Shown: one piece after another, positions 6,173-46,280 of the stretch
How the letters are laid out: every line of letters begins with the position of its first letter
Numbering within the stretch: position 1 is the stretch's first letter
The notes under the pieces: generated by a model
Seen by the model: the letters and a program-made list of their open reading frames with translations, nothing else
What the model was told of the DNA's origin: nothing
Databases searched by the model: none
Position numbers and translations under genes: made by a program
Virus record (IMG/VR): IMGVR_UViG_3300042861_001127
Coordinates: 1 to 47,281 of that record
Reading direction: 5' to 3' (one strand)
DNA: 47,281 bases
Source: a virus

Positions 6173-9100
6173 TCATCGAACGCTTCGGTCGATTTTTTCT
6201 CGGATTCTTGCGCGGATCCGTTCGGTGTCCTGGCTGATAACTCTGATCGCTTGGTCCGGCGTGACTGCCAGCAGTTGCGGCCCTTTTCGCAATACGTACT
6301 CGCGATACTGCTGACCAACCTCTCGTTGGTAGCGGTAGAACTCTTCAGGGGTCATCTGACGGCGCGTGCCGTTTTCGCTGACCTTTGCAGCTGCCGAAGG
6401 CGAAGGAAGAAACACTCCACGCTCCGACAGAGTGGCCAGCGTATTCCAAGCGGGATCATCCTTGCGGGTTTTGATCCAGCGGCTGAACGGATGTTTCATC
6501 ATCTCCACCGGTTCACCCAGGACGTTGACCATGGGACCGGCTCCGATGTCGCGTCGAAGCATAGGCACCTGCTGGAGGAAGTACTCGGAGCCCAGCTTGG
6601 CTTGGTAATACTGCGGATCGAAGTACGTATCGACCTGCTTGAGTATGTTCGGGATGAACGATCCAGCAAGGCGACCAGCCCAGCGGGAAAGGTCCTTGTT
6701 GACCAAGTCGTCGGCGTTGTACTTGTACGCGTTGGTCATTCCGACGAGTTCAGTAAACGCTGAGATGGCAGGTGAATCGGTGAGCACAAACATCCCGGCC
6801 TGGGCGGCATCCTTGAACTTTCCAAGGATTGCATCTCGATTCCATTCCTTCGGGTTGTGCAGCTGGTGATCGCGAAGCTCCCCGATGGCTGCAAGGCCCA
6901 TAGCAAACGGCATCTGCCGGTAGCTGATGAACTTATCTCCGATGCGGATGGAATACGGTTGGCGACCTTGAGCAAGTAGCTGCCGTTTCTTGTCCGGATC
7001 GAGTGATCGGTAGGACCCAGTGATGTCGATGTTGCGATCCTCTTCCTTGTCATCATCACCGAGGAACAGGGCGCCCGCCATGGCCATCAGAGCAGTTCCA
7101 ATGGAGGCCTTCATCAACAGGAGCTTCCGCTCGTTGTCGCTGATCTGGTAACCGAACGGTTTGTTGATCCGGCTGGAGTTGCTCATGTAGTACCGAGTGA
7201 ATCCCCACGGCAACCAGTCGATGCTGCTGTTGGTCGCGTTGGCCGCAAACCGCAGGAACGCCAGTCCGGTGACCATCTTGACGCCTGGGTACTTCTTCTC
7301 GGCTTGGTTGAGCCATTGGTAGAAGAGACCGACAATGCCAGTCGGGTCCTGCTTAAACGCGGCTTGGCGGGCGAGTTCCTTCGCGTCGATCAGGATCTCG
7401 GACGGGATTCTGGCTTCTAGGATTTCACGAACGCGCTGGTTCACGCGCTCGGCGGGAAGCCCTTCGGACTCAGCCTTCTCTCTAGCCAGTTGCACGTCAG
7501 AAGCGTCTGGAATGAGGAACTCCCGGATCTGCTTAGTGTCTCCACCACGGGCAATGATCCACGCCTTCATGGCTTCGTAGTTGGAAGTCACGGCAACATG
7601 GTCCATGGCGTCCATGAATCGGGACACGAAACGCAGATTGCTGATCGCCTTGAGCGCCATGTTGTCCGAGTCCTTCAATGCTTCGAGCGTGCTGGTCGGG
7701 CGCTCGGGATCGAAGTTGATGCCACGGAACATCTCTCCCCTGGCAAAGATTGCCGGCACATCCTTGAACGATCGGCGCATACCATCGAGCCATGCAGACG
7801 CGATGTAAGGCGCAGCAGTAGGGCTTTGCACGGATGCAAGGCCGGCGTTGATCATGCTGTTGATGATGCCGGTGCCCTGCTCGACAGCCGTAGTCAGACC
7901 GGACAACACGGATCCGTACCAGTAATCCATGATGATGTTGCGAGCGCGGATACCGCCCTCTCGCTGCATCAGCTGGTACATCTCTTGGATGATCTTGTTT
8001 CGGGCGGTGCCACCGGTCCTCTGGGCGCGTTGCGCCATGTCGGAGATCTTCTGGGCAGTCTCGCCATTGATCTGAGCCACCCCAAACTTCGGAGCGATGG
8101 CGTTGCGGAACGCATCAGCGGCCGCTTCAGGATTGGTGAGCAGACCGAGGTTAGCCCACTTAATAATGTTCGGAATGGAGTCGTAGATCTTCTTGCGAAC
8201 CTTCTCCTTAACCTCAGGCAGTTTGACCTGTTTTTTGAACTCCTCTCGAACGATCTTGTTGCGCTCTTTCTCGAAGGCGTTGCCAAGCAGGTTGGCGAGT
8301 TCGATCTGGCCTGCACGGCTCAGCGTTCTGAGGATCGGATGCTCGCTGATCACGTCGAGCAAGATGCGCTTGTAGTTCCCCTGCTTGTCCAAGCTGGAGG
8401 TCATTATGTCCTCCCAGGAAACACCAAGCTCTCGGCGAGCCTGCTTGAGTTCGCGAGACACGACGTTGTCGGCGATCGACAGTGTAGACCGGATGTTGGC
8501 GATTGCGCGCTTGGAAGCGTCCAGTAGCCAGCGGCGGATCTGATCGGATGAAACCTCAGGGAACGGGATCTCCTTCTGCCGCTCGTTGATCAGGTTGTAA
8601 TAGGTCAGCGTAGGAGTCAGGTAGTCGATGTCGCTGATCATCGCTCGACGCGCCTGGCCGCTCTGACCGAAGTCCTGGGCGCCACTCTGGGCAGCGACCT
8701 CACCGATCTTGCGCAGCAGGTAGACCCATCGCTGTTGGTCGATCGGATTACGGAACGATGCTTGAACTCGGGCGGCAGTGCGCTCGATCAGTTCGCCAAG
8801 GATGGTCTGCTGAAGGGCCGGCGTGATACCGAACTGAGTGGCTCGGTTTCCGCCAGTGGCAGCAGTGAAGGCCTCTTCGATGTCGTCTCCGTACTGATCG
8901 ACCCATTCGCGGGCAGCGGCTTTGCGCTCCGCGTTGGTCTCGCGAACGATGCGCCCCTGGAAGAACCCAGCAGACGGGCGGCGGCGTTGACCAGCGGCAG
9001 CGCGAGGCGGCTGAACCTCTCGTTGCTCAAACGCGCCAGTACCTGGAGTCTCGAATGCGCCTTCGATCAGCTGGCCGATTTCAACCTCGGCAGCGGCGAA

Positions 9101-12100
9101 GTCCGTGTTCGCAGGAGCGTTCTCGCGCACATACTGGATCGCAGCCTGACGCGCTTGAACAATGTCGCGGGTCTTGATGTAGACCGCACGCGCAGCCCGG
9201 AGCGCCAGATTGATCACCGCCAGCGGAATGGCAGCCGTGGATTCGTAGGAACCCTGAGGGCGGGTCGCTTGGATTGCTCGGTTCAACAGGTTCTCAACCT
9301 TGTCGTACATCAAACGACCCAGGTCGGGATTGATCTGTTCAGCCAAAGACATCAGAGACGGCGCATCGGCCGCATCCATTGTGCCTACAAGGAATGATCC
9401 CTTCTGAACGAGGTTATCGGGGAAAAGGCGCTGGACGCTGGGATTAGACCAAACCGGCCGTAACGCATTGCCAGCCCGGATGCGAACCTCGTACTTGCCA
9501 CCACCGAGAGGCTTGATTCGGAGTAGTTCAGCTGCCTTCGCGCCCTCACTCTCGCCCTTAGCGAAAATCTCGGTGCCTCCCCTCAGAAGCGAGATGGCTT
9601 CCTCTCTGGGAACCCGAATGTCCTTCACCTTCCGCTCAGGCGTGAAGTTCGCCGGCATCAAGATGCCAGTCTTCCGCTTGCCGGTGTTGGTCGTGTAGAT
9701 GGTGATCTTCGGGCGAACCTCAGATGCGCCACGTGCTCCCTGGAAACCCTTCAGGAGGTTGCCGGTCACGACGTACCGCTGATCGGTCGTCTCCGTTGTG
9801 GTCTGCCATTCTTCAGCGGCGTTGGAGACTTGTTCGCCAAGAGAAGACGCACCCTCGGCGCCTTCCGACATCGACAGCGGCATCGAAGCACGCGAGCGCA
9901 CCATGTTGCGCATCAAGAGCAGCTGGTGATCGGACGGACGCGTGAAGTTGCCTGGGTCATTCGACTTGAGCTTGAGCCCGATCGGGACCGCGACGTAGCC
10001 AAACTGGTTTTTGAATGCGCGACCAATCTTCTGATACGCCGAGATAACCATCTGTCGGGTTTCCTCGAACGCATCCTTCACGGATTGGATCTGCGCAGGA
10101 GTAACCTCCTTGGCTTCCATGGCAGCAACACGCTGTTGCTCGAAGGCCCGGCTCTGCTTGATCCACCCCTCGGCGATAGCCTTGGTCGTAGCCCGATTCT
10201 TGGCAGCCTCTTCCGTAGCGGCTTCGTAGGTTGGGGGAGCCTTCGGTGGCTTGATGGAAACACGCTCCATGACAGAAGGCCCGTCAAACGGAGTGGTTCC
10301 AGTTCCAGGGGTAAACTCCGAGGACTCAACCGTTTTGGCTCGGAGATCATCGACGTTCGCCTTCAGCGGGTTCTCGCCAACCTCATCGAGTGCGCGGATG
10401 CGGTCAGTGTAGAGTTCCGAGATGTCGCGCCAGAGCTTGGCCGCGTAGTCATCCGGAAGGATTACAAAGTAGCCCGTGGCCGATCTGGCGAAGTCGCCAC
10501 CTTCGTCGATTCCTTCTTCAAGCGGAGGAAGGCTGAAGTCCATCTGGTCAACGATCTCAGGATTGGATTTCAGGACGTTGTAGACCACGTCATCGCCAAT
10601 CGAGTTAAAGATGTCAGCGACCAGGCCTTCGTTTGCGGTGAGATCCGATTCAGTGTCCGCAGACGTGTTGGCATTCAGCGACGCCATCTTGCGGCGCAGC
10701 AACACCATGAACCGATTCTCAGCAGCCAGCGAAGAGGATAGAACCACGTAACGCGGCAGGCTGGTCTGACCAAAACGCATGATGCGCCCGAGCATCTGCA
10801 TGAAGTCGTTGATGTCCGGGGCAGCCTGCCCAACGATCATCACGCGGCGCCGCTGGTCTTTGAACTTCGGATCAGTATGCGCGCTGGTTCCAGTTGAGCC
10901 CGACTTGTTGACCAGGATGGCGTCGAGACGACCGTTGTTGAAGTCGTCCAAGACCACCCGTCGATCGCGCTTTTTCCTCGGGACAGAAGTCGCCTTGCCA
11001 TCAGGCGTGGTGACGATCTCCGTGTTTCGTCCGGTGATTTCGTCGATGGAATAACCCGCCTGCTGAATGCGGTTCTTTATGAAGTCGATGGGAGAGATCG
11101 GCATATCGCCAAAATCACCACCTTCGATTTCGTCGCGAATATCTTCGTACTGCTGGCGAGCATCATCCGGAAGCTCGTCAGGCGTGATTTTGATTGTGGT
11201 CTTCGTGTCGGCCGCTTTGTCGCGGACGGTGACCTCAAGCAGTTTGTCCAGCTGGCGAAGCAGTAATCCCTTGTACGAAACATCGTAACCCTCTTCCTTC
11301 AGGGTTTCGATCGGACCTTCCATCGTGTTGTTGATCGCGATGAACGGCTTCTCATTTCCCTTGAGCGTTTGGATCGCGTTGTCTGCAATCGCTTTGGCCT
11401 TCAGAGACAGGATGTACTGCGTCGAAAGGTTGAACAGCTGACTTCCAAAATTCGTGGATGAAACGCTGACCTTCTCTTCCGATGCGCGGGTCTGGTTTTC
11501 CGCGTTCTCCATCTTCTTAGCGACCTTCGAGACCTTTTTACTGAAGCGCAGGATCTGCTGGAGAAAGTCCGTGTACACATCGGCAAGCTCGCGCTCGCGC
11601 TCTGCGTTGTCGGTAGACGTGACGAAATCAAACGGCACTCCACCCCAGTTCTGCTCACGGCGCACGAACTCGCCGGATTCAGCGAGCATTGAGGTCAACG
11701 CCTGTTGGAGCGCCAAACCGCCGCTGTCCAGCAACTCGGTCATTTCAGTCGGGCGCAATCCAGCGCGCTGCATCAACGTCTTGAGCGCGTAGAGCCCGAG
11801 ATTGTCAGGCCGCTTGGCGAATGTCGCAGATGCGAAGTACGCGCCCTTGGACTTGGGCAGCACTTGGTCAAACCGGATGTTCGTGTCGGAATTGGCTCCG
11901 GCCGCAAGGTGGGCTTCGTCCAGCACGAAGATCGCGTTAGGAGCGATGCGGGAGAGCGCCTGCCAGATCGGACCAAACGGTTTGGCAACGCGCTTGGATT
12001 GGCGCTGACGCCGTTGCTTGGCCACCTCCTTGAATCCCTGCGGAACGTCAGCCTTCAGCTGGTCGTAAGTTGTGAAGAACGCGTTGGATCCGGCCGGAAG

Positions 12101-15100
12101 TTCAGCTGTGTCGTTGATCTTGGCCAGTTCCTCACGGGCCTTCGTGGCGGTTCTGCGCACCTTTACGGTTTCGCCGGTAGATGCCAGGTAATCGACATTG
12201 CTGTTCGTTACATACGGCCGAATGCTCGTCTCTCCGATCGCCGGAAGATCCCGGCCGGCCATGTCAGAATACAGAGTGGGCTTGGCAGTGATGAACACCG
12301 GAGTAAGCCCATTCAGACGGGCATACCGCAACACGGCAGCCACAGTGCGGCCCTTACCCACACCGGTCTGATCTGAGTTAATTAACGCCGAACCGCGTTC
12401 GATGTTTCGGATTGCTAATCCAGCAGCGTCAATCTGCGCGGCTGACATCGTCTTAAACAGCTGGTCCTTGGTCATTTGCAGCCGGTTGGCGACGTACTCG
12501 TCGATCGGCATCTTGACCTCGGCCTCCAATTCGCGGAGGGCGCGTTCGGTGGCGTCTGCGATGTTTGAGGGGCTGACCAACCCGGTCTCCGCGTTCTTGC
12601 TCTGGCTCTTGTAGGGCTTGGTCCGAGCCTCGGACATCACCTCCGGCTCTGCATCTGTTTCGGGCTCGACTGGGATTTCGGGCTCCGTCGGCACCGTGGC
12701 TTGGTCGATGGCATCAATGACGCCGGTGGCCTGGGTTCGATTGAGATCATCCAACCCTTCGACGGTGTTGGCGGTCTCCTGCCAGATGGCCAGAAGCGAT
12801 CGCTTGAGCTTGTCCCAGATTTCAGGGAGATCAGCGCGCACCTGCGAAGCGAATTCGGCAAACGTGCGGATGCCGGCCTTCACGTACAACGCAGCCATGC
12901 GGGCGCCGATCACGATGATCTCGGGATCAACGCCCATGCCGACGCCGCCGAGCTTCTCGCGCAGCTGCTTCTTCAGCGCCTCCAGTTGCGCCTGATCTTC
13001 CGTCGATAGCTTTGCCGTTAGTCCGGGCCTTGCGGTAGGCGGGTTAACCACAGGTTCAGGCCGTCCACCCGCCACGACTCCAGCTGCTCCTGGTTGTTGG
13101 ACTGCGGCCGCTGGCTCAACCACTGGTCCAGCTGCCGTCGGTTCACTTGGAGCAACAGGTCGTTGTTCTTGAACACTTGGTACAACTGGTCCGGGTCCAG
13201 GAACAGGCTGCTCGACAGGTGTAGGTTCTGCCCGCTGTCCTTGAGGTACGATTTCAGGACGCGCAGGCGCTCCTGGAACGCCTCCGGGTTGTTCTCCACC
13301 TCCTGCAACTGCTGGCTCCACAGCTGGGAGATTTCCGACGCCAGTTGCTGCTGGTGTGACAGGGGTTGTGACTTTCGGTTTGCGAGCTTCATTGATCAGC
13401 GGTTTGAGTTGTGCCCAGCTGTTGTAAACGCGAGGTGCTGAAATCCACGGACGAACCAATCCCCCTTGGGCAGCGGGAGGGGTTGATCGTTTTCCGTCGA
13501 TTACCACAATATCAACCGGCCATCCCGCACCCATCTTGGAGTACATTCCCCCGTCGATGGTGAAGAAGTCGGTAACATTGAACCGATTAAACAGGTCAAG
13601 GTACTCAGCCCGTTCGTAGGATTTGAGCCGGTTTTCTGGAGTTCCCAACTTGTTGGACTGCGATCCAGTCTTGGATCCTAAGATCAGCACGGCCTTTCCG
13701 TTGGGGGCCATGGCTTCGAGCGTGTTCAGCGCAATAGCAAGGTCGATGCTCGATGTCTGCGCCCGCTTGATGCTGCTCCTGAAAAGCGGGAACGACTCTT
13801 TCTGGCCTTCGATGAATCGAGCGCCAAACGGAGGGTTGATAATAACGCGATCCGGCTGAGCCGAATCCAGTGAGTTGAAGAACTCCTGGCTCACCGCATC
13901 GAGCCCGGTCGCAGGCTTGCCGATGAAACGCTCCAAGCGGGTGCGGCGATTCGGGTCCAACTCGTTGGCAAGAATGTCCTGCTTGGTCGGATCCGACGTG
14001 ACCAGAAGCATTCCGTTGCCAGCAGTCGTCTCGGCCACGCGTTGACCTCCCTCTACATCCGCCAGAATGCCAGCCAGATAGGCCAGGGGCGGCGGGGTCG
14101 AGTAGGCCTGCGCAGTTTTGCTGGACGCAGTGCGAGTCCCTAACTGCGGCTGCTCCTCGTACCGTTGAGTTAACTTATCGTAGGTCTCGTTTGGATCCAC
14201 TCCGGCCGAGCGGTCTTCACGAACGGTCTGGGCCGTTGCCTCAACAATCTGCGATTCGAGTTCTTCTTCGGCCGCTTTCTTGGTCGGCTCAACCAGCTTA
14301 GGTGCAGGAACCGGGGTCGGTTCGGCAGGGGGAAGCGCAGACGCCGCTGGAGAGATTTCCTCCGGAGGACGGATTAGCTCTTCTGGTACGATCGGCGCTT
14401 GGGTTTCGGTTCTTGCTCCTTCGGGAGGTCGCCCTCCTTTATCCACTTCTGGCAGTCCCACTTGGACTTCGGGTTGCGGCTCTTCTCCGCGAAGCAGGCC
14501 TTCATCTGGGCCTTGTTCTTGAACGGCACTGGGTGTGAGGGGTTGGGGTTCGGGTTGTACGGTCGCTTCAGTTACAATTGGTGCAATCGGCTCCGCCGGC
14601 GGCGCAATAGCCTCCTCAACAGCGGCAGAGATCGTGGGCTCAGGCTGGATCCGAATCGGACCAGACGGCGGACCTCCGGCGTTGATGCCACCAAGCTCTT
14701 CTGCAATGTCAGGAGTAAGCTCATCTTCGATCCCAGCCACGGTGGCGTTAGCACGCGGTAGAGGATTCGTAGGATCACCTCCAAGCGATTCAGCCGCAGC
14801 ATTGGCTAGTTTGGCATTAGGCCGTGAACCAACGAGACCGCCGACAATTCCTCCAGATGCGGCCCCAATGAATCCAGCTTGAGCTACACCATCGAGCCAC
14901 CCGCGTTCCGGATCGTACACTGCTGCGGCAGCAATGTTTCCACCGAACTGCTCAGCTGACTCTTGGACGCCCTCGGTTGCTAGCGCTTCTACCGCGCCTC
15001 GGACACGTTCGGCGCCAGTAACCCCAAGGAACTTCCTTTGGAACTTGGCAGACTGAGGAACCAACCTCTCGGCAAGTCTTTCCCCGATGCCTCCGATTCG

Positions 15101-15874
15101 GCCGGTGACAAAACGCTTGGCTACCTTAGGCGCTGCGCCCAGCAAGCCCTCGGTGACAGCGCCAATGGGAGCGGTTGTGGCGAATGCCAGATTCTTTTTC
15201 TGCTCGCGGCGGTCTTGAAGATCCGCAGCGAGATCGTACTGCTGGTTGGCTAGCGCCTCAGCAATACGACGGTTGATCGTAGCATCAGCCTCTTCGGCTG
15301 CTGACTCACCTGATTGAAGTCCGTAAGAGATGGCGGCCCCCAAGGGAGCGGCCGGACCAGCAATTACCGCAGCTGGAAGTGTAGAAACCGTGCTTCCGAT
15401 ACCGCCCATGATTTGAGCGGGAATCGACTCTCGGACGCCAGGGAGGCCAGGATAGGTTTCCTTTCCAAACTCTTGGACGGCCTGGCCAGCGCGGTAAAGC
15501 GGCTCCTGTTCCAAGGGCACTTCGGCAGTCTGCTCAATCTTCCTTCCGGTGTACGGGTTGACCGTTGGCGGAGGAAGAAAAGTGGCAACACGGGCTGCTC
15601 CCTTGAGGGTTCCTCCAATTCCTTCCAACGCCCCACGCGGCAACTCGGAAAGAGTGTTGAGCACGGTCTCGACCGTGCCGAACTCACCAGCGCGGAACTT
15701 GGCTGCTTCCAGCTGCTCAGTTTCGCCAGCCATTTCTTGCTGACGTCGCTGGATTAAATTCTTCCGAATTTGATCCCGGTTTTGCTTTACGAAGTCGAAA
15801 GCCTGTTCTTGGGTGTAATCTTCTGGGAAAACTACGGTTCCAAGCTCCGTTCCAAAATCGACTTCGATGGGCAT
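6173..15874 (-). CDS. Giant polyvalent ejection protein with DNA methyltransferase and Strawberry-notch-type helicase domains
   Basis: 3233 aa, one fifth of the genome. The start MPIEVDFGTELG is followed by an Ala/Gly-rich region with hydrophobic patches (to about 350) and a Pro-rich linker. An N6-adenine methyltransferase follows, with a SAM-binding ETTAGNGMLL near residue 615 and catalytic NPPF near 678. A second Pro-rich linker follows. The SF2 helicase of the Strawberry-notch class has GVGKGRTVAAVL near 1170, DEAH near 1313 and MLGRIMRFGQ near 1690. The long C-terminal half is helical, with LAFLRFAANATN near 2875 and a hydrophobic segment near 2930. The architecture resembles DarB of phage P1. 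It sits last in the tail operon, where T7-like phages encode gp16, so it is probably packaged and ejected. No break or frameshift seen. Confidence 0.88.
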   Translation of the reverse strand: MPIEVDFGTELGTVVFPEDYTQEQAFDFVKQNRDQIRKNLIQRRQQEMAGETEQLEAAKFRAGEFGTVETVLNTLSELPRGALEGIGGTLKGAARVATFLPPPTVNPYTGRKIEQTAEVPLEQEPLYRAGQAVQEFGKETYPGLPGVRESIPAQIMGGIGSTVSTLPAAVIAGPAAPLGAAISYGLQSGESAAEEADATINRRIAEALANQQYDLAADLQDRREQKKNLAFATTAPIGAVTEGLLGAAPKVAKRFVTGRIGGIGERLAERLVPQSAKFQRKFLGVTGAERVRGAVEALATEGVQESAEQFGGNIAAAAVYDPERGWLDGVAQAGFIGAASGGIVGGLVGSRPNAKLANAAAESLGGDPTNPLPRANATVAGIEDELTPDIAEELGGINAGGPPSGPIRIQPEPTISAAVEEAIAPPAEPIAPIVTEATVQPEPQPLTPSAVQEQGPDEGLLRGEEPQPEVQVGLPEVDKGGRPPEGARTETQAPIVPEELIRPPEEISPAASALPPAEPTPVPAPKLVEPTKKAAEEELESQIVEATAQTVREDRSAGVDPNETYDKLTQRYEEQPQLGTRTASSKTAQAYSTPPPLAYLAGILADVEGGQRVAETTAGNGMLLVTSDPTKQDILANELDPNRRTRLERFIGKPATGLDAVSQEFFNSLDSAQPDRVIINPPFGARFIEGQKESFPLFRSSIKRAQTSSIDLAIALNTLEAMAPNGKAVLILGSKTGSQSNKLGTPENRLKSYERAEYLDLFNRFNVTDFFTIDGGMYSKMGAGWPVDIVVIDGKRSTPPAAQGGLVRPWISAPRVYNSWAQLKPLINEARKPKVTTPVTPAATGVGNLPAVEPAVAGGGEQPGGVPGAPARPEIVPQGQRAEPTPVEQPVPGPGPVVPSVQEQRPVAPSEPTAAGPVVEPAAAVQQPGAAGVVAGGRPEPVVNPPTARPGLTAKLSTEDQAQLEALKKQLREKLGGVGMGVDPEIIVIGARMAALYVKAGIRTFAEFASQVRADLPEIWDKLKRSLLAIWQETANTVEGLDDLNRTQATGVIDAIDQATVPTEPEIPVEPETDAEPEVMSEARTKPYKSQSKNAETGLVSPSNIADATERALRELEAEVKMPIDEYVANRLQMTKDQLFKTMSAAQIDAAGLAIRNIERGSALINSDQTGVGKGRTVAAVLRYARLNGLTPVFITAKPTLYSDMAGRDLPAIGETSIRPYVTNSNVDYLASTGETVKVRRTATKAREELAKINDTAELPAGSNAFFTTYDQLKADVPQGFKEVAKQRRQRQSKRVAKPFGPIWQALSRIAPNAIFVLDEAHLAAGANSDTNIRFDQVLPKSKGAYFASATFAKRPDNLGLYALKTLMQRAGLRPTEMTELLDSGGLALQQALTSMLAESGEFVRREQNWGGVPFDFVTSTDNAERERELADVYTDFLQQILRFSKKVSKVAKKMENAENQTRASEEKVSVSSTNFGSQLFNLSTQYILSLKAKAIADNAIQTLKGNEKPFIAINNTMEGPIETLKEEGYDVSYKGLLLRQLDKLLEVTVRDKAADTKTTIKITPDELPDDARQQYEDIRDEIEGGDFGDMPISPIDFIKNRIQQAGYSIDEITGRNTEIVTTPDGKATSVPRKKRDRRVVLDDFNNGRLDAILVNKSGSTGTSAHTDPKFKDQRRRVMIVGQAAPDINDFMQMLGRIMRFGQTSLPRYVVLSSSLAAENRFMVLLRRKMASLNANTSADTESDLTANEGLVADIFNSIGDDVVYNVLKSNPEIVDQMDFSLPPLEEGIDEGGDFARSATGYFVILPDDYAAKLWRDISELYTDRIRALDEVGENPLKANVDDLRAKTVESSEFTPGTGTTPFDGPSVMERVSIKPPKAPPTYEAATEEAAKNRATTKAIAEGWIKQSRAFEQQRVAAMEAKEVTPAQIQSVKDAFEETRQMVISAYQKIGRAFKNQFGYVAVPIGLKLKSNDPGNFTRPSDHQLLLMRNMVRSRASMPLSMSEGAEGASSLGEQVSNAAEEWQTTTETTDQRYVVTGNLLKGFQGARGASEVRPKITIYTTNTGKRKTGILMPANFTPERKVKDIRVPREEAISLLRGGTEIFAKGESEGAKAAELLRIKPLGGGKYEVRIRAGNALRPVWSNPSVQRLFPDNLVQKGSFLVGTMDAADAPSLMSLAEQINPDLGRLMYDKVENLLNRAIQATRPQGSYESTAAIPLAVINLALRAARAVYIKTRDIVQARQAAIQYVRENAPANTDFAAAEVEIGQLIEGAFETPGTGAFEQREVQPPRAAAGQRRRPSAGFFQGRIVRETNAERKAAAREWVDQYGDDIEEAFTAATGGNRATQFGITPALQQTILGELIERTAARVQASFRNPIDQQRWVYLLRKIGEVAAQSGAQDFGQSGQARRAMISDIDYLTPTLTYYNLINERQKEIPFPEVSSDQIRRWLLDASKRAIANIRSTLSIADNVVSRELKQARRELGVSWEDIMTSSLDKQGNYKRILLDVISEHPILRTLSRAGQIELANLLGNAFEKERNKIVREEFKKQVKLPEVKEKVRKKIYDSIPNIIKWANLGLLTNPEAAADAFRNAIAPKFGVAQINGETAQKISDMAQRAQRTGGTARNKIIQEMYQLMQREGGIRARNIIMDYWYGSVLSGLTTAVEQGTGIINSMINAGLASVQSPTAAPYIASAWLDGMRRSFKDVPAIFARGEMFRGINFDPERPTSTLEALKDSDNMALKAISNLRFVSRFMDAMDHVAVTSNYEAMKAWIIARGGDTKQIREFLIPDASDVQLAREKAESEGLPAERVNQRVREILEARIPSEILIDAKELARQAAFKQDPTGIVGLFYQWLNQAEKKYPGVKMVTGLAFLRFAANATNSSIDWLPWGFTRYYMSNSSRINKPFGYQISDNERKLLLMKASIGTALMAMAGALFLGDDDKEEDRNIDITGSYRSLDPDKKRQLLAQGRQPYSIRIGDKFISYRQMPFAMGLAAIGELRDHQLHNPKEWNRDAILGKFKDAAQAGMFVLTDSPAISAFTELVGMTNAYKYNADDLVNKDLSRWAGRLAGSFIPNILKQVDTYFDPQYYQAKLGSEYFLQQVPMLRRDIGAGPMVNVLGEPVEMMKHPFSRWIKTRKDDPAWNTLATLSERGVFLPSPSAAAKVSENGTRRQMTPEEFYRYQREVGQQYREYVLRKGPQLLAVTPDQAIRVISQDTERIRARIREKIDRSVR

Positions 15875-15875
15875 A

Positions 15876-17069
15876 TCAGAGTTCTTCAGGGTTCTCGCTG
15901 TCCGGCTGGCTTAGAATGCGGCTCAATTCTTCCGGCGACAACGTAATTGGTCCGGAAGGTGCGGCCTGCGGCACTTGGGGCGCGACCATCGGAGCAGCCA
16001 ACGGTGCGGCGGTTCGAGGCAGTGCGCCTTCCATAACCTGACCTATGGTAAATCGCTTGACGCGCTGGGCTGCGGCTTCAGCGCGGTTCTTGGGCTTGGC
16101 TTCTGCGGGTAAACCATAAATTTCACGGCGTAGAGCGCGTTCTCCTTCCAGCCGACGAGCGGCTTCTTCAGGGCTGATTCCCGATGATTCTCCTATGAAG
16201 CCACCCACGTCTTTGCGGACCTTGAAGTTGCCAGCCTCGTCTTGATAGACGTTCACATCATCAACGCGCTTAGCCCGAAGCGTTTGAAGATCCTTGAGAG
16301 CCGCGTCAATGTCATCAAACAGCCCCGGCTCCTTCTCAGGCTTAGCCAACAGCGATGCCTCGTAAGCGCGAGCTTCTTCAGGAGTTCCTTCAAACTTCCG
16401 TTTACGACCCTCTGGTCCTTCTTCGATGATAATCTTTGGCCCCTTCACCGCCGCTGCCCTCGGGCTGGGTCCAACGTAGGCGTACCTGTTGCCACCGATC
16501 GTGGTCTGAGGGTACTGGGACAGGTCTTGTTGCCCCTGGAGAATCCCAGCTGTGGTCGGACGGCCTAAGATTTGATCTTCAACGGCACTCGGAAGTTTTA
16601 CCAACCCGCGACGTGCTAGCGCATTTTCGTAGGTTGATTCTCGTTGCAACCGACGAGCCAGCCCTTGGTTTAAGGCGGTTTTGTACTCGGGGCTTTCAGT
16701 GATTTCCGGTGCCAGCGGTTCGTTGACGTTGAACTCGCCAGCACGGGCTCCGAGGGCGCTGCGAAGCTGTTGGGTTTGAAGGCGTTGATCCCGCTTCAAA
16801 GCCGATTTCGCGTAGTCGGGTTCGCCCTGAGCGTCCAAAACAAGGTCCTGACCAAACTGTCCTGCGGCAGCATCGAGACGTGCTTTGATCCGTTCGCCCA
16901 ACGCAGCCTGCCGTTCTTGCCCAAGCTGGTTGTAATACTCCTGCCGGATGCGCGCCTCTTCCTGCCGTTGCGCAATGGCTTCCTCACGCGCCTGGCGCTG
17001 ATTTGCCAGCTGCACGCCCTGGAGATACGACTGCCCGATGTTTTCGAGTCCTGAGAATGGGTTTGCCAT
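15876..17069 (-). CDS. Probable internal virion / ejection protein, coiled-coil rich
   Basis: 397 aa, no recognised family. The N-terminal 100 residues are Gln/Arg/Ala-rich helix (LQGVQLANQRQAREEAIAQR) typical of T7 gp15-like core proteins. The middle holds YAYVGPSPRAAAVKGPKIII, then another helical region (SPEEAARRLEGERALRREI) and a Pro/Ala-rich tail. It lies between the gp14-like gene and the giant gene with 1-3 bp spacing. Assignment as an inner-core protein rests on context and composition. Confidence 0.7.
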   Translation of the reverse strand: MANPFSGLENIGQSYLQGVQLANQRQAREEAIAQRQEEARIRQEYYNQLGQERQAALGERIKARLDAAAGQFGQDLVLDAQGEPDYAKSALKRDQRLQTQQLRSALGARAGEFNVNEPLAPEITESPEYKTALNQGLARRLQRESTYENALARRGLVKLPSAVEDQILGRPTTAGILQGQQDLSQYPQTTIGGNRYAYVGPSPRAAAVKGPKIIIEEGPEGRKRKFEGTPEEARAYEASLLAKPEKEPGLFDDIDAALKDLQTLRAKRVDDVNVYQDEAGNFKVRKDVGGFIGESSGISPEEAARRLEGERALRREIYGLPAEAKPKNRAEAAAQRVKRFTIGQVMEGALPRTAAPLAAPMVAPQVPQAAPSGPITLSPEELSRILSQPDSENPEEL

Positions 17070-17072
17070 AAA

Positions 17073-17843
17073 TTAACCTCTCGGTGCTCCGACTTGTCCA
17101 GGAGCCATGGGGTTGAACGTCGATGATCCGCCTCCGGCGCCAGCGCCACCGGCGCCGTAATACTGACCAAGGGCACCAAAACCAAGGTTAGTGAGCCCAG
17201 ATCCAAGCGAACCCATTCCCTGACCCACCACTCCAGTTGCACTTGGCATCGAAGCCACTCCGATCAGCGCGTTCATACGTGCGATGCGCTCCGATTCACG
17301 TAGGCGCGCAACGTCCTGCGGAGCAAACTCATAATTGGCAACTGGCGCCAGCGGTGTGGTTCCAAGGATATTGGCAAATTGCTGACCGCCCGCCTGCTGT
17401 AACGCCAGCGACGTGCGACCGAGATCCCGTGCTGTCAGGTTGCGGGCGGCTTGGCTTCCAGCAAACCCTCCGGATACCGCACGGCCAGCAGCCTGTCGTT
17501 GCACCTGGGCAGCGACATCTGGAGGAAGTTCTCCTCGCAGAAGTGCCAACGCATTTTCCGCCCGCTTAGCCTGCGCCTCCTGATAGCCGGGCACCTGGAT
17601 TCCCAGCGACTCCAAAAGTTGAGCGCGAGCAAACTCATTACGTTGCGCCTCTAATTCTCGGGTGCGCGGTGCCAGCTGCTCAGCTTCTCCAATGGCAGCT
17701 GGAATATCCAGTGGAGGGGTCATGGCCGCGCCTCTGGCCTGCTTTCGTGCAGAGCTAGCAGACGATGCCTGAAGACCCATTCCGACGCCTGACGTGACGA
17801 TACCGGCGGCGCCCAAACCGATGGCTGTTCCTACGAATGACAT
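17073..17843 (-). CDS. Probable internal virion protein (gp14-like)
   Basis: 256 aa. The N-terminus is a Gly/Ala-rich hydrophobic stretch (VGTAIGLGAAGIVTSGVGMG) that could insert in a membrane. Long Gln/Ala/Arg-rich helices follow, with a disordered Gly/Ser tail (YYGAGGAGAGGGSSTF). This layout is common to small ejection proteins that help form the DNA channel. It precedes the two larger candidate core proteins, the same order as T7 genes 14-15-16. There is no direct sequence match to prove it. Confidence 0.7.
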   Translation of the reverse strand: MSFVGTAIGLGAAGIVTSGVGMGLQASSASSARKQARGAAMTPPLDIPAAIGEAEQLAPRTRELEAQRNEFARAQLLESLGIQVPGYQEAQAKRAENALALLRGELPPDVAAQVQRQAAGRAVSGGFAGSQAARNLTARDLGRTSLALQQAGGQQFANILGTTPLAPVANYEFAPQDVARLRESERIARMNALIGVASMPSATGVVGQGMGSLGSGLTNLGFGALGQYYGAGGAGAGGGSSTFNPMAPGQVGAPRG

Positions 17844-45479: not shown

Positions 45480-45943
45480 GGAAAATCAAAGGCATTTTCG
45501 TGGACCCGTTTGAACGGGTGAACACGATGGTTGAAACCTCGAAAGACATCCGAGAAATCCAGAAACTACTGAAAGTGGAATTATTGGAGGTCTTCAATCC
45601 CAGTCGAGTTGGTGGACCAGACGTCGAACTCTGGGTGGATGAGATGGGCACACTGCGTGAGAACCCCGGCTGGTGGTTTGGTTCGTGGAACCAGCTGTTT
45701 GCTGGCCGGTGTTTCATCTGCAAACCCGGTCTGAAGACACTTCCGAAATCGCAAGCCTACGGTCTGGTTTGCTGGATCCGTCCCGGCATGACGGAGTCTT
45801 GCAAGCAGATCGCGCACCTGAATCGGGCGAGGATAATCTCCGGCCCCAAGGGCTTTCAGGACTGGAAGCGCGACGCGAATGACTGCAAGACGATGCTTTC
45901 GATGCTTGCTCTTGCCGTTGAGGAAGCGCCACTGCTACCATAA
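45476..45943 (+). CDS. DUF3846-like protein
   Basis: 155 aa from ATG 45476 (ATGA overlap, GGAGGATGGAG upstream). RKIKGIFVDPFERVNTMVET, REIQKLLKVELLEVF, DVELWVDEMGTLRENPG, WWFGSWNQLFAGRCFIC match the phage/plasmid DUF3846 layout: I-K-x-I-x-VDPF...VDE-x-G. The extra C-terminal helical region (from PKSQAYGLVCWIRPG) is longer than in the usual family. Role unknown. Confidence 0.78.
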   Translation: MRKIKGIFVDPFERVNTMVETSKDIREIQKLLKVELLEVFNPSRVGGPDVELWVDEMGTLRENPGWWFGSWNQLFAGRCFICKPGLKTLPKSQAYGLVCWIRPGMTESCKQIAHLNRARIISGPKGFQDWKRDANDCKTMLSMLALAVEEAPLLP

Positions 45944-45950
45944 GCGGATT

Positions 45951-46280
45951 ATGAAAGCCGAACTATTGGCAGCACTGATCGCCGTGGAATCCGGCGGGAA
46001 CGACCTGGCTCGGGGCCGGCACGGGGAACTCGGTGCTCTCCAGGTGCGCCCCTGCGTCGTCGCGGACGTGAACCGGATCACCGGGAAGTCGTACCGTTGG
46101 TCTGAGATGACGAACCGTGTGGTGGCTCAGACAGTTTGTAAATCGTACCTCAGATACTGGGGTGGGCGTATTGGCCGACCGGCGACTGACCGGGACCTCG
46201 CGCTGATCTGGCATCACGGCCCGAACGGATGGAAACGATCGGGCGGGGTGTATTGGAAGCGGGTGTCGGCAGCGAAATGA
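45951..46280 (+). CDS. Lysozyme-like / transglycosylase small protein
   Basis: 109 aa. IAVESGGNDLARGRHGELGA, LQVRPCVVADVNRITGKSYR, and then a helical end with LALIWHHGPNGWKRSGGVYW. The ESGG...G-x-LG-x-LQ-V pattern with Glu13 as the likely acid fits the lysozyme-like SLT fold. No signal peptide. It is the only muralytic candidate found, so it may be the endolysin, although it lies away from the holin-like gene. Many small proteins of this family are unproven as enzymes. Confidence 0.7.
   Translation: MKAELLAALIAVESGGNDLARGRHGELGALQVRPCVVADVNRITGKSYRWSEMTNRVVAQTVCKSYLRYWGGRIGRPATDRDLALIWHHGPNGWKRSGGVYWKRVSAAK

Follow-up and report, generated by a model that had tools for sequence, protein, structure and literature searches.

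The linker between the two enzyme domains of a giant phage protein was shown, by frame-specific selection and by conservation, to be dual-coding, with one frame coding for the giant and the +1 frame for a probable second protein of 124 amino acids (aa). We favor, with rather better than even confidence, the reading that this locus encodes an ejected, payload-carrying giant together with a separately translated 124-aa protein which partners the enzyme pair. The overlapping gene in the linker is what appears to be novel here. A polyvalent giant with a methyltransferase-Strawberry-notch (Sno) dyad is already known, as Iyer et al. (2017, PMC5512222), describing polyvalent proteins that contain a dyad of DNA methylase and helicase, note a Sno form "in a few instances", and the idea of an ejected anti-defense giant is likewise in that paper. 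Its text makes no mention of overlapping genes, frameshifting, or overprinting, and no described overlap in Sno dyads was found in the open-access literature searched. Long conserved out-of-frame nested genes have rarely been established in prokaryotes; the present one accompanies just one enzyme pair, both in numerous phages and in plasmids from two phyla of bacteria.

The window, by which we mean the whole stretch of 47,281 nucleotides analyzed, ends in a 127-bp direct repeat, leaving a unique length of 47,154 bp; because this repeat is terminal, the window looks like a complete, circular viral contig of that length, and the source genome (47.15 kb) is podovirus-like. On its minus strand (the earlier note named no strand) positions 6173 to 15874 form a single open reading frame (ORF) of 3233 codons, which starts with ATG and contains no internal stops; the features described below lie on that strand unless stated otherwise. 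At 20.6% of the unique sequence, the ORF bore out the claim that one unbroken gene covers about a fifth of the genome, and we describe its product as a polyvalent ejection-type protein. The motifs from which a DNA methyltransferase and an Sno helicase had been read were all present at the expected places (TAGNG at residue 617, NPPF at 680, GVGKGR at 1171, DEAH at 1319, and MLGRIMRFGQ at 1694), and profile searches made domain by domain backed both calls. For the helicase, Pfam matches above cut-off were obtained with AAA_34, the P-loop NTPase half (residues 1119–1421; 11612–12520; E = 9e-10), and with Helicase_C_4, the Sno C-terminal domain (residues 1610–1770; 10565–11047; E = 1.9e-18). For the gamma-class N6-adenine DNA methyltransferase (residues 555–835; 13370–14212), the Pfam N6_Mtase match fell below cut-off (E = 0.0037), though a six-sequence profile of relatives matched EcoR124II HsdM (1.3e-5) and M.BseCI (1.4e-5) in the PDB; STP and NPPF were invariant among six methyltransferase relatives. 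Values of dN/dS between 0.00 and 0.09 indicated strong purifying selection on both enzymes. Because of the Pfam helicase matches, the methyltransferase profile matches, and this purifying selection the domain calls stand, and the joining of a predicted gamma-class adenine methyltransferase to a predicted Sno helicase is confirmed at the level of sequence.

With several effector domains and small linker domains in one giant among virion genes, and with the diagnostic domain ART-PolyVal on the same scaffold in relatives, the giant belongs to the polyvalent proteins, a known kind. As in those described in PMC5512222, an adenine methyltransferase and an SF2 ATPase are fused within a giant protein that is linked to the virion and has small additional domains; unlike them as described there, the window giant has a second gene in a linker and a payload exchanged between near-identical siblings. 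The suggested relation to P1 DarB held for layout, with methyltransferase preceding helicase, and for a proposed role on incoming DNA, but not beyond. The giant has the gamma-type adenine methyltransferase of the DarB family but not an SNF2-type helicase homologous to that of DarB; the DarB helicase is of the SNF2/Helicase_C type, no similarity to it was found, and the DarB linker carries no coding-like +1 ORF. As judged from these comparisons, the giant is not a DarB orthologue. The DarB-like giants of Lessievirus and Lastavirus occupy the same genome place and are similar in size, but those of CSP3 and SopranoGao carry a lytic transglycosylase and SNF2/HepA/ResIII-type helicases which are absent from the window protein, and Lastavirus giants also carry LPD39, of which the window protein has none. 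One small polyvalent bead (residues 955–1054; 12713–13012) is common to the window giant, Lastavirus and other phage giants, and Bacteroides phage BS-TP4. The dyads of BS-TP4 and of plasmids are 31–36% identical to that of the window; the C-module and N-module scaffold of the window was not found in BS-TP4.

The earlier note placed the giant last in the tail operon, behind two gp14/gp15-like genes. The run of tail-type genes was indeed present, but profile searches with the two upstream genes, of 397 aa (15876–17069) and 256 aa (17073–17843), did not support a gp14/gp15 identity and named neither. Both genes keep their place directly upstream of the giant in the relatives read and are candidate ejection proteins. 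The C module (residues 2191–3233; 6176–9304) is a conserved scaffold that also occurs alone: in podovirus ctQWt234 a 1121-aa protein matches this end of the giant, lacks the enzymes, and comes after a four-helix-bundle protein, an arrangement that fits a core ejection protein. A long helical C-terminal half, as claimed, was recovered only through a low-confidence AlphaFold model of the C module (24 sequences; pLDDT 51.5, pTM 0.31), which was not taken to fold search. The C module gave zero matches to PDB sequences, T7 gp16 included, and Pfam detected no lytic transglycosylase domain, a T7 gp16-type trait, in the giant. A small SLT-like ORF was seen on the plus strand at 45879–46280 (Pfam E = 0.003, below cut-off), and the window phage, in contrast to Lessievirus and Lastavirus, may keep its transglycosylase outside the giant. 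In phage JC1 the genes follow the order seen in the window, with a small virion protein, a larger virion protein, and a 4515-aa DarB-like protein, and 51 unique peptides place this last second in the proteome of the virion (PMC9144972). From gene order and JC1 virion proteomics we infer that the long frame of the window encodes an ejection protein with an exchangeable payload between conserved N and C scaffold modules, and that the giant would travel in the virion and be ejected along with the DNA. By analogy with DarB, its adenine methyltransferase and Sno-type DNA translocase would then mark or shield the incoming genome from restriction; methylation with translocation is the model proposed for the protection of incoming DNA by DarB-type dyads (PMC5512222). 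Alternatively, the giant might act inside the cell late in infection, methylating phage DNA before packaging, with the C module lying near the tail genes by chance. The C-module model is compatible with such a role, as it does not settle the fold, but we consider the role unlikely, given that the giant follows the two upstream genes in conserved order in the relatives read, that the stand-alone C module of ctQWt234 occupies the same place, and that the JC1 giant is found in virions.

The giant's payload was shown, by comparison of relatives, to be exchangeable on a common scaffold, even against a near-identical sibling. The relatives fall into two groups. Those in group A (e.g. loci L006–L013) retain the methyltransferase and helicase and have C modules 84–97% identical to that of the window; group B, 22 loci (L014–L035), lacks both enzymes, with C modules 41–44% identical and the N module (residues 1–414; 14633–15874), where sequence covers it, 48–93% identical. 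The group B payloads are strings of small beads whose order differs among members, with ART-PolyVal or DUF7178 in several of them; ART-PolyVal was above cut-off in L014, L015, L025, and L034, on the same scaffold as the giant. The clearest swap was in L033. Its two upstream genes are 99.7% and 100% identical to those of the window and the N module of its giant is 92.5% identical, followed by a different payload and a C module of 41% identity; DNA homology with the window stops at 14724 and restarts at 7101, save for a 154-base patch in linker 1. N modules have also been exchanged on their own, being 36–37% identical in L008, L009, and L011. Ejection-type payloads thus appear to be traded like cassettes between near-identical siblings. 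In the middles of L014, L020, L022, L029, and L034, beads of 60–130 aa, many of them 80–99% identical, occur in varied orders and combinations spaced by Pro/Ala linkers, which amounts to payload domain shuffling. The middles of L030 and L031 contain a bead with a sliding-clamp-like pattern (FSDGxRxVxxxGKxLLxxE) for which there was no Pfam clamp match, and in L012 one stop at 10103–10105, either a sequencing error or a real break, interrupts the giant ORF inside the C module. A C-module scan of cellular genomes yielded a single contig from a metagenome-assembled genome (MAG), L079, and a search of 299 genomes of that MAG's phylum, run without a positive control, gave 0 matches to the Sno-dyad helicase at E ≤ 1e-40. 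Within L079 (1–4272) an ART-type segment nearly identical to that of group B phages precedes a C module of about 40% identity; because of this pairing, payloads may move between C-module types. The ADP-ribosyltransferase payloads on this scaffold belong to a class whose usual targets are host proteins, and raise the question of whether the window payload, too, attacks or remodels the host rather than shielding phage DNA; we think this improbable for a methyltransferase-translocase pair, which fits the known antirestriction layout (PMC5512222).

The long Pro-rich stretches of the giant had been taken for linkers, but not all of them are mere linkers: the one between the enzymes holds an overprinted second gene, which the earlier note missed. 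Over residues 851–950 the G+C content of the long frame was 88–96% at codon position 1 and only 24–40% at codon position 3. Here the +1 frame contains an ORF of 124 codons, ATG to TAA (13018–13392, long-frame residues 828–952), whose product is present in 12 viral loci at 80–98% identity. Among seven genomes of the window lineage, pN/pS at this ORF was 0.13–0.43 in the +1 frame and 0.83–2.48 in the long frame, whereas in control segments from the methyltransferase, the bead, and the helicase the contrast was reversed, with the long frame constrained. Counted by long-frame codon position, substitutions in the segment numbered 73 at position 1 (the third position of the +1 frame), 34 at position 2, and 28 at position 3; those in the controls fell on position 3. 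The ATG and stop of the +1 ORF were kept in all seven genomes, and start, stop, and length were conserved among relatives. A sliding frame scan across the whole giant gene flagged only this segment in the window. No clear Shine-Dalgarno sequence was seen at the window ATG or in its lineage, and a codon-shuffle test of the ORF in the window alone was not significant (P = 0.14). Frame-specific selection and conservation together argue for a second gene, from which the 124-aa protein is probably translated.

BS-TP4 and the plasmid dyads of Gloeobacter, Chroococcidiopsis, Picosynechococcus, Leptolyngbya, and Thalassospira also carry a +1 ORF in this position; the Gloeobacter protein had been annotated independently by PGAP (WP_230844304.1). 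When four Picosynechococcus plasmids were aligned by the long frame, pN/pS was 0.29–0.45 in the +1 frame and 1.47–1.71 in the long frame, and controls were reversed. We extended the survey to 79 loci from a viral contig scan, plus named records; methyltransferase and helicase lay in one ORF at 81 loci, were split at 1, and the methyltransferase was not found at 9. There were 71 distinct +1 ORFs, with 70 counted as coding-like (products of about 83–175 aa) after exclusion of that of Pseudomonas pND6-2 as not coding-like. In Acinetobacter phage MD-2021a and in locus L154 only short +1 stretches were present. Almost every distinct Sno-type fusion in the survey thus has a candidate +1 gene in this position. 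All 53 comparable pairs had lower pN/pS in the +1 frame, with the long frame above 1 in 49, although these pairs were selected and aligned by +1 product, a bias toward +1 identity that makes the window-lineage and Picosynechococcus tests cleaner. A Shine-Dalgarno match of at least 4 nt preceded 56% of the +1 ATGs (all 71 ORFs) versus 14% of helicase-internal ATGs. Synonymous shuffling of the +1 ORFs at the 70 loci led us to expect 153 long-frame stops were the +1 frame alone coding, and 0 were observed, and therefore both frames have been kept open across the survey; the test counted fused loci only (split loci seen: 1), and it is uninformative in the window lineage, where few stops are expected. 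Codon-shuffle tests were significant in seven dyads (P from 0.0002 to 0.013). In P1 DarB and Lastavirus SopranoGao, the +1 base composition of the linker was not coding-like, despite which the length of the DarB +1 ORF gave P = 0.012.

Direct similarity grouped 49 of the 71 +1 products into one family, the largest, and AlphaFold gave it a confident predicted fold (38 of 49 members; pLDDT 93.6, pTM 0.87) with no structural neighbor in the libraries searched (best E 0.77 in the PDB and 0.81 in BFVD). None of the small-protein families rose above the Pfam cut-off or gave a credible PHROG match, and three members searched against phage records had no match. The proteins are mostly acidic, with a median pI of 4.6; that of the window is nearly neutral (6.1). 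The window protein clusters with those of its near relatives and with that of L113, a locus with a 52% identical helicase; comparison by hhalign (0.2–1.9%) left it unlinked to the 49-member family, and direct homology to the cyanobacterial small protein was unsupported by profile comparison. What we claim for the window and the large family is the same arrangement; position, frame, and partner suggest common ancestry.

The +1 ORF might instead be reached by a programmed +1 frameshift, giving a methyltransferase with a small C-terminal domain and no helicase. The lack of a clear Shine-Dalgarno sequence in the window lineage would be in keeping with this, as would the +1 frame being open up to about 16 codons upstream of the ATG in some long-frame genes. 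We nevertheless regard a frameshift as rather unlikely, since in all seven window-lineage genomes a stop just before the ATG closes the +1 frame, since sites resembling a Shine-Dalgarno sequence lie ahead of the ATG in the Thalassospira dyad and those of cyanobacteria and were commoner than at control ATGs across the survey, and since AlphaFold produced a complete, compact model for the protein as started at the ATG. That the ORF is an untranslated accident of a Pro/Ala-rich linker is very improbable and refuted as far as computation allows: low-complexity frames often keep other frames open, and the codon-shuffle result in the window lineage is not significant, but selection specific to the frame, seen in two independent lineages and in 53/53 pairs, the confident fold of the largest family, and the Shine-Dalgarno enrichment all stand against it.

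We therefore return to the reading of a separate protein made from its own internal ATG. Because a +1 ORF accompanies the methyltransferase-Sno pair in plasmids as well as in phages, regardless of what else the giant contains, and because it is found alongside the Sno-type pair but was unseen in the SNF2-type P1 DarB and SopranoGao, we consider it most likely that the small protein acts together with this pair, as a subunit, accessory or regulatory, that is produced independently of the fusion; it offers a testable missing component of an antirestriction-type machine. On the broader proposal, that Sno pairs are three-part machines with an orphan-fold, out-of-frame small protein as a near-universal third subunit overlooked by gene finders that suppress overlaps, we are evenly balanced. 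Cas11 (e.g. PMC11899642), a small separate subunit made inside the gene for a large CRISPR subunit, provides an analogy only, and its internal translation is in-frame, whereas that of the window protein would be out-of-frame. Other "Pro-rich linkers" of giant phage proteins may also be second genes. Pro-rich linker 1 of the window giant (residues 415–540; 14255–14632), which contains a small conserved segment and slight indications of another +1 ORF, was rejected as a clear second overprint, its frame contrast being weak (about 0.3–0.6 in the +1 frame and 0.5–1.4 in the long frame). It is a possible one, with a conserved +1 stretch (MKACYAEKNRNPQSKWDCDKWIKEGGLPKSEGPKPKSPRKKYSK) seen there and also in L020, L022, L024, L025, L029, L030, and L033.
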